A stretch of 41,318 nt of DNA from Anaerolineae bacterium. GTDB lineage: Bacteria; Chloroflexota; Anaerolineae; Aggregatilineales; Phototrophicaceae. The DNA lies in contig JAJDZQ010000154.1 in NCBI GenBank assembly GCA_022824565.1, positions 1 through 41,318 on the forward strand, given 5' to 3'. The notes under the pieces were generated by a model. That model searched no databases, was not told the origin of the DNA, and saw only the letters and a list, made by a program, of their open reading frames with translations. Positions 14,804-37,336 of the stretch are shown here, in pieces (within the stretch, counting starts at the first letter, position 1; every line of letters begins with the position of its first letter). The translations under genes were made by a program, and so were the position numbers.

Positions 14804-15676
14804 ATGCCTTCAGCAGTACGAATGCGAACTTTGCTCGAAACCGGCGTGCACTTCGGGCATCGCACCAACAAGTGGAATCCCAAGATGGACGAGTTCATCT
14901 TCACGCATCGCAACGGGATCCACATCATCGACTTGCAGATTACGCTCCGCAACCTGCACAGCTTTCATGACATGATAGCCAATATGGTAGCGGGCGGCGG
15001 CAATGTGCTTTTCGTCGGCACCAAACGTCAGGCGCAGGAGATCGTCCAGCGCGAAGCCACTCGTTGTGGCATGCCCTATATCAATTATCGCTGGCTGGGC
15101 GGCACATTAACCAACTGGAAAACCATCCGCAGCCGCATTGACACCCTAAAGCAGTTGGAAAAGCGGCGCGATGCCGGCGAATTTGACCGGCTGACCAAGA
15201 AAGAAGGCCTGGTCTTGCAGCGCAAAATTGCCAAGTTGCAGTTGCGCCTGGGTGGCATCCGCGAGATGAAGAGCACACCCGAATTGCTGGTCGTCGTCGA
15301 TGCCGAACGCGAGCATACGGCGGTCAAAGAAGCCAACATTCTCAAGATCCCCGTGCTGGCTCTCGTCGATACCAATGCCAATCCCGACCTGGTCGACCAT
15401 ATTCTGCCCGCCAACGATGATGCCATGCGCTCCATCCGCCTGTTGATCGGCGCGTTGGCAGATGCGGTGATGGAAGGGCACAACCTGCGTCAATCGGCCG
15501 GTATCGAGGACGACGAAGCGCAACAGGTCGCCGATGTCTATGATGACGACCTTTCTGATGAAGAGTTGCTGGGCGAATCGACCCTGGCGAAGTTGCGAGA
15601 TTCCAGCCTGTTTGACGATGGCGAAGACGCAGCGAGCGCAGAAGCAGCCAGCGAAGAACCAGCCAGCCAGACCTAA
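14804..15676 (+). CDS. rpsB: 30S ribosomal protein S2
   Basis: 290 aa. The N-terminal landmarks of S2 are plain: LLETGVHFGHRTNKWNPKM, NVLFVGTKRQAQEIV, YINYRWLGGTLTNWKTI and the C-terminal VPV-type segment ILKIPVLALVDTNANPDLVD. Residues after about 230 form an acidic, alanine-rich tail (many Asp/Glu) beyond the 241-residue E. coli length. AGGAG lies about 8 bases before the ATG. It is followed by tsf after 66 bases, the usual order. Confidence 0.98.
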   Translation: MPSAVRMRTLLETGVHFGHRTNKWNPKMDEFIFTHRNGIHIIDLQITLRNLHSFHDMIANMVAGGGNVLFVGTKRQAQEIVQREATRCGMPYINYRWLGGTLTNWKTIRSRIDTLKQLEKRRDAGEFDRLTKKEGLVLQRKIAKLQLRLGGIREMKSTPELLVVVDAEREHTAVKEANILKIPVLALVDTNANPDLVDHILPANDDAMRSIRLLIGALADAVMEGHNLRQSAGIEDDEAQQVADVYDDDLSDEELLGESTLAKLRDSSLFDDGEDAASAEAASEEPASQT

Positions 15677-15742: not shown

Positions 15743-16348
15743 ATGGCAGTAACGGCAAAGCAAGTCAAGCAACTGCGAGACAAAACCGGTGCCGGACCAC
15801 TGGATTGCAAGAATGCGCTGGTCATGCACGACGGCGATATTGACGCGGCGGCCGCATTCTTGCGCGAAAAAGCGCTGAAAGACGGCATCAAGCTGCAGGG
15901 CAAGGGACGCAGCGCCAACGAAGGGGTCATCGGCAATTATGTGCACTTTGACAATCGGCTGGCTGTCATCGTGGAGGTCAATTGCGAGACAGATTTCGTA
16001 GCCGCCACCGCGCCATTTAAATCCTTCGCCAAAGATATCGCCATGCATATCGCCAACATGAACCCGCGCTATGTGCGGCGCGAGGATGTGCCTGCCGATG
16101 TGGTCGCGGCAGAAAAGGGTATCCAGCTAGAGCGCGCGCTGGACGAGGGCAAACCACCGCATATCGCCGACAAGATCGTCGCTGGCAGAATGAACAAATG
16201 GTACGAAGAGTTCGTTTTGCTCGAGCAAGACTTTATCAAGGACGATGACAAAACAGTCAGCCAGGTTCTGCAAGAGACGGTTGCCGAGGTGGGCGAGACC
16301 ATCAACATCGGCCGCTTCCAGCGCTTTGCCATCGGCAGCGACAACTAA
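15743..16348 (+). CDS. tsf: Translation elongation factor Ts
   Basis: 201 aa, the GDP/GTP exchange factor for EF-Tu. The N-terminal UBA-like module KQVKQLRDKTGAGPLDCKNAL and the EF-Tu-contacting core (VNCETDFVA) are present. It is short compared with the 283-residue E. coli protein and similar to the compact form known in Thermus and Chloroflexota, so this is not a truncation. The C-terminal EF-Ts signature VAEVGETINIGRFQRF is intact. It is followed after 47 bases by the MerB-like gene in the same direction. Confidence 0.97.
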   Translation: MAVTAKQVKQLRDKTGAGPLDCKNALVMHDGDIDAAAAFLREKALKDGIKLQGKGRSANEGVIGNYVHFDNRLAVIVEVNCETDFVAATAPFKSFAKDIAMHIANMNPRYVRREDVPADVVAAEKGIQLERALDEGKPPHIADKIVAGRMNKWYEEFVLLEQDFIKDDDKTVSQVLQETVAEVGETINIGRFQRFAIGSDN

Positions 16349-16395: not shown

Positions 16396-17079
16396 ATGAG
16401 CTTGCCGCCTACCGAAAGCGATTGGCAGATCCGCCAGGTAATCTATGCGCGCCTGGTCGCAACCGGTTGCGCGCCCGATATTCGTGACATCGCCGCGCGG
16501 TTTGGCCTGCGCCCCGCGCAAGCACAAGCCGCTTTGCAACGGTTGCACGACGCACATGCCCTGGTGCTGGCTGATGACGGCGCTGTGCTGATGGCGCATC
16601 CGCTTGCGGCTGTGCAGACCGATTACCGCGCGCGCATCGCTGGGCGCTGGCTCTATGCCAACTGCGCCTGGGATTCGCTGGGCATACCTGCCATGCTCGG
16701 GGCTGACGCACAGATTGAAGCGCTGCATCCTTTGACGCGCCAACCCATACGCTTTGCCATTAGCGGCGGGCAACTGGTCGGGGCAGCCGGCGGTCTTGTG
16801 CATTTCGCCCAGCCATTTCGCCATTGGTATGATGATATTGTAGAAACCTGAGCAGGCATCTTGCTCTTCCGGTCGGACGAGGAGATCACAAGCTGGTTGC
16901 AGCGCACCTGCCAAAATCGGGGAGCCGTCTTGAGCTTGCAACGCCTTTGGGCATTGGCAAAAAGCTGGTATGCCGATCGCATGTCGCCGGCTTTTCGCGG
17001 TCGGACGACTGACGAGGCGCAAGCCATCTTCCGCCAGCTGAACCTGACAGGAGAATTCTGGGGCGATGCGCGGTCTTGA
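16396..17079 (+). CDS. MerB-like (alkylmercury lyase family) protein with in-frame TGA, putative selenoprotein
   Basis: Read through the TGA at 16849-16851 the product has 227 residues. Residues 10-65 form a winged-helix domain (IRDIAARFGL). C90-A-W-D93 in RWLYANCAWDSLGIP matches the catalytic Cys96-x2-Asp99 of plasmid MerB (RLYAWCALDTL). The TGA is codon 152, 62 residues after C90; in MerB Cys159 lies 63 after Cys96. After the TGA, F at +6, S at +8 and W at +15 match MerB without gaps, and the frame stays open for 75 codons (SLQRLWALAKSWY). A hairpin resembling a bacterial SECIS follows. Selenocysteine at the mercury-attacking position is therefore likely; a nonsense mutation (TGC to TGA) is the alternative. 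It sits between tsf and pyrH. Homology to MerB does not prove that mercury is the substrate. Confidence 0.82.
16864..16881 (+). promoter_or_regulatory. Putative bacterial SECIS hairpin
   Basis: CUC-U-UCC pairs with GGA-C-GAG (one U/C mismatch) around the apical loop GGUC at 16871-16874. The loop begins 20 bases after the TGA. E. coli fdhF has an apical loop with GGUC beginning 19 bases after its UGA. A competing weaker stem, GAGCA (16850-16854) with TGCTC (16862-16866), could form instead. The stem is short (3+3 pairs), so this needs an RNA-structure test. Confidence 0.6.
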
Positions 17080-17175: not shown

Positions 17176-17904
17176 ATGATGCAACGCGATGCCCTGACCT
17201 ATCGGCGCATATTGCTGAAGCTGAGCGGCGAGGCGCTGGCTGGCAATGGTGGCGCCGGCATCGATCCCGATAAAGCCGCCTATATCGCCCAGCGCGTGCA
17301 CGAAGTCTATGAGCTGGGTATGCAAGTGGCGATTGTGATCGGCGGCGGCAACCTGTGGCGCGGCGAGCCAGCTGCCCGTCTGGGCATGGACCGCAGCACC
17401 GCCGACCACATGGGCATGATCGCCACGGTAATGAATGGCCTGGCGCTGCAAGATGCCATCGAGCGCCTGGGCATCGTCACGCGCGTGCAAACCGCCGTCG
17501 AAATGAACAGCGTGGCCGAGCCTTACATCCGCCTGCGCGCCATCCGCCACCTGGAAAAAGGGCGTGTGGTTATCCTCAGCGGCGGCATCGGCAGCCCCTA
17601 CTTCACGACCGACTCGGCAGCGGCCTTGCGCGCCAGCGAAATCCACGCCGATGTCATCGTCAAAGCCACCAAGGTCGATGGTGTCTATGCTGCCGACCCC
17701 ATGCAAGAGCCAGATGCGCAACGATATGAACGGCTTCGCCACCAGGATGTGCTTGATCAGCAATTACGGGTGATGGACACCACCGCTTTCACACTTTGTC
17801 AAGAAAACAATATGCCCATCATCGTGCTGAACTTCTGGAATCCCGCCGACCTGGTCAAGGCGCTGCAGGGCGATTCCAGCGTGGGCACCTTGATCTGCGA
17901 CTAG
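17176..17904 (+). CDS. pyrH: UMP kinase
   Basis: 242 aa, amino-acid-kinase fold; phosphorylates UMP to UDP in pyrimidine nucleotide synthesis. Motifs: LLKLSGEALAG, IGGGNLWRG, STADHMGMIATVMNGLALQ and GSPYFTTDSAAALRA (UMP-binding region), ending in DTTAFTLCQEN and a C-terminal GTLI. AAGGAG lies 5-6 bases before the ATG at 17176. It is normally followed by frr; here a glycosyltransferase follows after 17 bases instead. Confidence 0.97.
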   Translation: MMQRDALTYRRILLKLSGEALAGNGGAGIDPDKAAYIAQRVHEVYELGMQVAIVIGGGNLWRGEPAARLGMDRSTADHMGMIATVMNGLALQDAIERLGIVTRVQTAVEMNSVAEPYIRLRAIRHLEKGRVVILSGGIGSPYFTTDSAAALRASEIHADVIVKATKVDGVYAADPMQEPDAQRYERLRHQDVLDQQLRVMDTTAFTLCQENNMPIIVLNFWNPADLVKALQGDSSVGTLICD

Positions 17905-37144: not shown

Positions 37145-37159
37145 AGTGTTCATTACCAA

Positions 37160-37281
37160 TCTAGGTCTCGGGGTGCCCATAGCCTGGGCGTGCAACTGGG
37201 GAAGTCGGTGAGAATCCGACACTGTCGCGCAGCGGTGACTGGTGTGTAGCCAGAAGTCCGAATACCAGCCCAAGACTTAGC
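37160..37281 (+). ncRNA. Cobalamin (B12) riboswitch
   Basis: Aptamer landmarks in order: GGTGCCC, the core GGTGAGAATCCGACACTG with TCGCGCAGCGGTGA, and the B12-box equivalent AGCCAGAAGTCCGAATACC. P1 can be drawn as CTAGGTCT (37161-37168) with AGACTTAG (37273-37280), eight pairs including one G-U. It senses adenosyl- or other cobalamins and sits between a good promoter and the B12-type binding-protein gene. Its 3' strand overlaps an antiterminator segment (see terminator entry). Confidence 0.95.
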
Positions 37282-37336
37282 TCAGTCTACTTTCCGCGTA
37301 AAGAGGGAGACGAGCATGGACTACAGTACCTCAATC

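Follow-up and report, generated by a model that had tools for sequence, protein, structure and literature searches.

Does the TGA codon that interrupts a MerB-like reading frame in an Anaerolineae bacterium (Chloroflexota) mark a broken gene, or is it read as selenocysteine (Sec), and what would the complete protein do? The frame lies on the forward strand of contig JAJDZQ010000154.1 (assembly GCA_022824565.1), from which a stretch of 41,318 nt, hereafter the window, was analysed. Judging from sequence comparison, we give a probability of about 0.8 to the reading in which the internal TGA is decoded as Sec, and the 227-residue product would be a selenoenzyme likely to cleave carbon-mercury or other carbon-metal bonds. 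Taken separately, the insertion of Sec at codon 152 is predicted with very high confidence, while organomercurial lyase activity, i.e., the cleavage of the carbon-mercury bond, is favoured with distinctly more reserve. The features concerned are the following:

16396..17079, + strand: MerB-family gene with an in-frame TGA, 227 residues when read through (Pfam MerB, PDB alignment, codon-level selection)
16849..16851, + strand: TGA, predicted selenocysteine codon at the MerB Cys159 position, codon 152 (TGA/Cys exchange; ends of homologues)
16663..16665, + strand: Cys90 codon, corresponding to MerB Cys96 (PDB MerB alignment; TGA here in ten relatives)
16672..16674, + strand: Asp93 codon, corresponding to MerB Asp99 (PDB MerB alignment)

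The MerB-family reading frame

The frame begins with an ATG at 16396 and ends with a TGA stop at 17077-17079. Read through, it scored 92 bits against the Pfam MerB model (PF03243, cut-off 27). The part before the internal TGA aligned with profile positions 3-76 (57.9 bits) and the part after it with positions 88-125 (19.4 bits, alone below the cut-off), which bears out the original prediction that a single MerB-like frame is split by the TGA. In alignments with MerB chains from the PDB, residues 90, 93 and 152 align with Cys96, Asp99 and Cys159, and the residues F+6, S+8 and W+15, counted from the TGA, agree with the same chains, so that the MerB landmarks named in the original prediction turned out to be correct. 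Within the Cys96-Asp99-Cys159 signature (PMC8261052), Cys96 and Asp99 are kept and Cys159 is replaced by UGA, the predicted Sec. As the sequence and structural matches showed, the protein retains the whole MerB fold and all three catalytic positions.

Exchange of TGA and cysteine codons at the Cys159 column

The codon at the Cys159 column was read in 72 non-duplicate loci, which comprise the MerB matches of a draw of 400 Chloroflexota genomes (59 of which gave a match), the window and loci L017-L019, with duplicates removed and the column covered. It is TGA in 31 loci, TGC or TGT in 41 and any other codon in none. As the column holds TGA or a Cys codon in 72/72 loci, the argument that a TGA falling on the catalytic cysteine goes beyond chance was upheld, and the homologues carry only Cys codons or TGA there. 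The 24 draw genomes with a TGA form, together with L017-L019, account for the 31 TGA loci. At the order level, 50 of 154 genomes gave a match, and the 48 loci read, the window included, hold TGA in 40 cases and a Cys codon in eight; this set has the window, L018 and probably L019 in common with the phylum set. Within the genus, a match was found in 30 of 34 genomes, four being without one, and 29 of the 34, the window's own included, have a single TGA at the Cys159 column. Eight order-level matches (the second of G461, five of six of G431, and those of G477 and G474) and one at the phylum level (G207:C82) were not fetched; L072 (G008) and L089 (G280) gave no match and enter no count.

The thirtieth match in the genus, L136 (G515:C5:440500-445000), is a decayed copy that has a TAA and whose frame is disrupted, though the TGA at the Cys159 column is still present in it; this locus was excluded from the codon-usage and selection counts. 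The MerB relatives L099, L100 and L103 carry Cys codons at positions 96 and 159, and a third one replaces that of Asp99.

The tree of 72 proteins, from which the partial matches L071, L090 and the second one of L040 were left out, requires at least seven changes of the Cys/Sec label at position 159, four of them forced by well-supported branches. The window belongs to a supported clade of 11 rows, eight of them Sec and three Cys. The column has changed between Cys and TGA repeatedly.

A protein database held 254 homologues, and among the matches listed, 117 of 120 end exactly at residue 151, while the remaining three run to full length and carry Cys at 152. Gene callers cut this MerB family at the UGA. 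Two short genes had been expected at the locus; the 151-residue front piece is indeed in the database, but the back piece was not seen as an entry among the matches listed. Since this cut drops the residue itself, the Sec form would be missed by surveys that demand Cys159, such as the MerB survey in the available part of PMC8261052.

Probable translation beyond the TGA

Among 29 congeneric sequences, pairs differed on average by 0.29, 0.24 and 0.53 at the first, second and third codon positions before the TGA and by 0.30, 0.25 and 0.52 after it; for the 90 nt beyond the stop, compared unaligned, the values were 0.70, 0.69 and 0.70. The median dN/dS was 0.27 before the TGA (225 pairs) and 0.30 after it (164 pairs), counting only the pairs with dS of 0.05-1.5 out of 406. 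The codons after the TGA are under purifying selection equal to that on the codons before it, and the tail is probably translated.

The hairpin and the selenocysteine machinery

A hairpin follows the TGA in the position expected of a bacterial selenocysteine insertion sequence (SECIS):

16864..16881, + strand: upper part of the predicted SECIS hairpin; its apical loop, GGUC, occupies 16871-16874, 19 nt downstream of the TGA

The bacterial model given in the available text of PMC13188914 has a loop of 3-9 nt with G within the first two positions, a distance of 16-37 nt from the UGA and an energy of -7.5 kcal/mol or lower. The window fits this model with its GGUC loop, its spacing of 19 nt and a 29-nt hairpin of -9.0 kcal/mol. 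Of 64 distinct TGA segments, 55 have GGTC 19 nt past the TGA and 61 form the three inner stem pairs, vs. 1 and 5 of 49 Cys segments, respectively. A GUGA loop sits on the same stem in four more of the 64 TGA segments, and five others deviate. The pair at the base of the loop is C-G in 58 segments, U-A in five and G-U in one, the U-A pairs being those of five segments with a second in-frame TGA. The covariation score was 0.210, compared with 0.130 in shuffled alignments (0/500 as high) and at most 0.158 in slid versions. Moreover, the codons forming the stem are nearly fixed: Phe is TTC in 61/61 cases (65% elsewhere in the same genes), Arg is CGG in 52/56 (21%) and Ser is TCG in 51/57 (29%).

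In the formate dehydrogenase genes of Escherichia coli, the SECIS is likewise a hairpin that closely follows the UGA, at a similar distance and with GGUC as its apical loop, but its stem differs from that of the MerB-family hairpin. Loci L059, L086 and L088 have TGA at the Cys159 column followed by other hairpins and sit in branches that otherwise carry Cys; they are possibly separate origins of Sec. In L071 (G080:C11:161300-171300), a TGA-bearing MerB of which only the C-terminal part matches, AGTC takes the place of GGTC in the loop.

The genome of the window contains a tRNA-Sec with the anticodon UCA (selC) as well as selA (547.5 bits), selB (341.9 bits) and selD (390.1 bits), so that the absence of selB and selC, named beforehand as one of the outcomes that would speak against Sec, was not found. 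The selD match (L022, G000:C177:31986-32921) includes one in-frame TGA, and SelD is therefore probably a selenoprotein as well. A selA match was present in all 24 genomes of the phylum draw with the TGA form (weakest E-value 3.3e-114), and selB exceeded its cut-off in 23 of them, the other, G246, having a partial match of 183 bits. Among 66 tree rows of known status, TGA occurs with selA in 27 and without it in none, and Cys occurs with selA in 32 and without it in seven. The nearest Cys loci fetched (L073, L074, L076, L077 and L083) come from four genomes that have neither a selA match nor selB above the cut-off; G363 is absent from the list of selA matches. Among the Cys-only genomes searched, selB above the cut-off was found in 0/7, which is not an unbiased rate because these seven were picked for lacking strong selA.

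Several of these results tell against Sec insertion or weaken the comparisons made for it. The control Cys segments are mostly more distant relatives. Two of the five covariation measures were reached by some shuffles, as changes on both sides of a pair and the pair types were matched by 34 and 51 of 500, respectively. RNAalifold returned no consensus structure for the 64 sequences, and in the window itself the stability of the 52-nt fold is unremarkable (z -0.91) and the hairpin stem has one mismatch. As for the machinery, selA exceeded its cut-off in 321 of the 400 draw genomes; it is thus common, and its presence in the TGA genomes is a consistency check more than a proof. The 32 Cys rows mentioned above come from selA genomes too, and a kinship-corrected test of the association between Sec and selA, with three pairs only, gave no significance.

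Function and alternative explanations

In MerB, Cys159 and Cys96 bind the metal of the organometal, and Asp99 protonates the leaving carbon; compared with a thiol, a selenol is softer as a ligand and more acidic. In the gene studied here, SelB carrying Sec-tRNA would bind the GGUC hairpin and insert Sec. By analogy with MerB, the Sec152 selenolate and the Cys90 thiolate would hold the metal, and Asp93 would protonate the carbon. With a selenol rather than a thiol at position 152, the capture of the metal would be faster.

The explanation that competes best with organomercurial lyase activity accepts the selenoprotein and changes its substrate: another metal (tin, lead or arsenic) or another carbon-heteroatom bond, as proposed for SaoL, a MerB-like selenoprotein. 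We consider it unlikely, with an appreciable share of the probability left to it. No MerA over the cut-off was found in the genome of the window (best 321.3 of 454.45 bits), and the gene stands in a housekeeping operon context. A link to a mer operon was sought and not found: no mer gene occurs among 19 neighbouring genes scanned around 11 TGA relatives, a scan that covered only some neighbours of each relative, several of them without any Pfam hit. The curated NCBIfam cut-offs for MerB were also missed (NF009710, 62.4 of 193 bits; NF033555, 49.5 of 200), and Cys117, which also belongs to the MerB signature of PMC8261052, is replaced by His in the PDB alignment. All of this counts against mercury as the substrate. 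It is set against the retention of the three catalytic positions and of the whole MerB fold, and against the 895 genomes in which MerB without MerA is on record according to the part of PMC8261052 available.

A metal-sensing regulator, with DNA bound by the winged helix at the N-terminus and a Cys/Sec site that does no more than bind metal, appears very improbable. Weak structural matches that rank below MerB cover mostly this winged helix. Still less probable, and rejected, is the reading of UGA as another amino acid, whether by genome-wide reassignment, near-cognate read-through or insertion of Cys. The Cys present at this column in homologues would suit the last of these, but the genome has tRNA-Sec, selA, selB and selD, and the TGA is followed by a hairpin with SECIS-like loop and spacing; moreover, UGA is not reassigned throughout, because the gene itself ends in TGA. 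The possibility that the TGA arose from an ordinary nonsense mutation as the MerB gene decayed, for which the broken copy in G515 and the four genus genomes without a match could be cited, or from a sequencing error, was rejected as scarcely credible, since TGA occupies the same column in 29/34 genus genomes (which makes an error very unlikely) and in 31/72 loci of the phylum set, with TAA or TAG in none, and the constraint past it equals that before it.

If the predicted selenoenzyme is active on mercury, Chloroflexota would have a further, Sec-dependent way of breaking down organomercury compounds. More speculatively, and with rather less than even confidence, selenium-dependent organomercurial lyases may form a large hidden class in Chloroflexota, present in databases as 150-residue fragments, including forms with a Sec-Sec metal clamp, and degrading methylmercury in nature.

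Relatives with two predicted selenocysteine codons

Ten loci (L062-L068 and L139-L141) carry a TGA at the Cys96 column in addition to the one at Cys159. The seven of them included in the tree fall into two separate groups. Five of the ten (L063, L067, L068, L140 and L141) share the same hairpin, CCCUU-CGUGC-AAGGG, 26 nt after the first TGA. None of the five double-Sec loci scored individually reached the SaoL cut-off, and no report of a double-Sec MerB was found in the literature searched, which excluded the two Haft papers on SaoL and its kin. As natural variants of a single active site, the Cys-Cys, Cys-Sec and Sec-Sec forms would allow selenium to be compared with sulphur in carbon-metal cleavage.

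Relation to known proteins

SaoL (organometallic lyase, NCBIfam NF040728) is listed in Table 1 of PMC13188914, in the text available, as a MerB-like selenoprotein with one Sec in the motif CU, and the available part of PMC9312934 lists an alkylmercury lyase MerB-like selenoprotein. The protein of the window shares with SaoL the MerB-like fold family and one predicted Sec, but its motif is TU (T-U-A) rather than CU; these comparisons were made with the SaoL model and motif, and no SaoL sequence was compared. Membership in SaoL was rejected, as the protein scored 36 of the 140 bits required and its relatives also stayed below the cut-off (0/10 of those scored individually, best 56.4 bits); the best E-value against the model among 46 relatives was 7e-18. 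Locus L061 (24.6 bits) gave the sole alignment reaching the end of the SaoL profile, the last position of which falls on the Cys159 column, and the Sec of SaoL may therefore occupy the same place.

With MerB of plasmid R831b and its kin (alkylmercury lyase; PDB 1s6l, 3f0o and 3f2g), the protein shares Cys96, Asp99 and the fold, and differs in carrying UGA where MerB encodes Cys159 and His where MerB has Cys117; the identity is about 20%, and its genome has no MerA over the cut-off. MerB2 (PDB 5c17) has Cys, not UGA, at 159 and, in the alignment, Ser rather than Asp at 99. As the nearest NCBIfam models, MerB and SaoL, both remained below their cut-offs, the protein is placed in the MerB superfamily but in neither curated family, and the score far below the SaoL cut-off marks it as a new branch.

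Sec in a relative of MerB is already known; none of the texts examined reports the present branch, the extent of its occurrence in Chloroflexota or forms with a double Sec. The literature searched, limited as stated above, held no report of a Sec-containing MerB from Chloroflexota, and a search for the term MerB in PMC12013277, PMC2398784 and PMC5029168 found nothing. The original prediction of a probable new selenoprotein therefore stands as to the selenoprotein, which is strongly supported, and as to the branch, while the idea itself is not new, SaoL being in print in the portion of PMC13188914 available.

Genomic context

The MerB-family gene is situated between tsf and pyrH, in a row of genes that includes the following:

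14804..15676, + strand: rpsB, ribosomal protein S2 (TIGR01011, 326.5 bits)
15743..16348, + strand: tsf, elongation factor Ts (TIGR00116, 185.3 bits; order kept in L017-L019)
17176..17904, + strand: pyrH, UMP kinase (TIGR02075, 308.7 bits; order kept in L017-L019)

The order rpsB-tsf-merB-pyrH was not found at the other MerB loci fetched, many of which are only about 3 kb long, and it recurs in L017, L018 and L019, which come from three Anaerolineae/Chloroflexi assemblies. Elsewhere in the window, a cobalamin riboswitch was identified at 37153-37287 on the + strand (60.4 bits).
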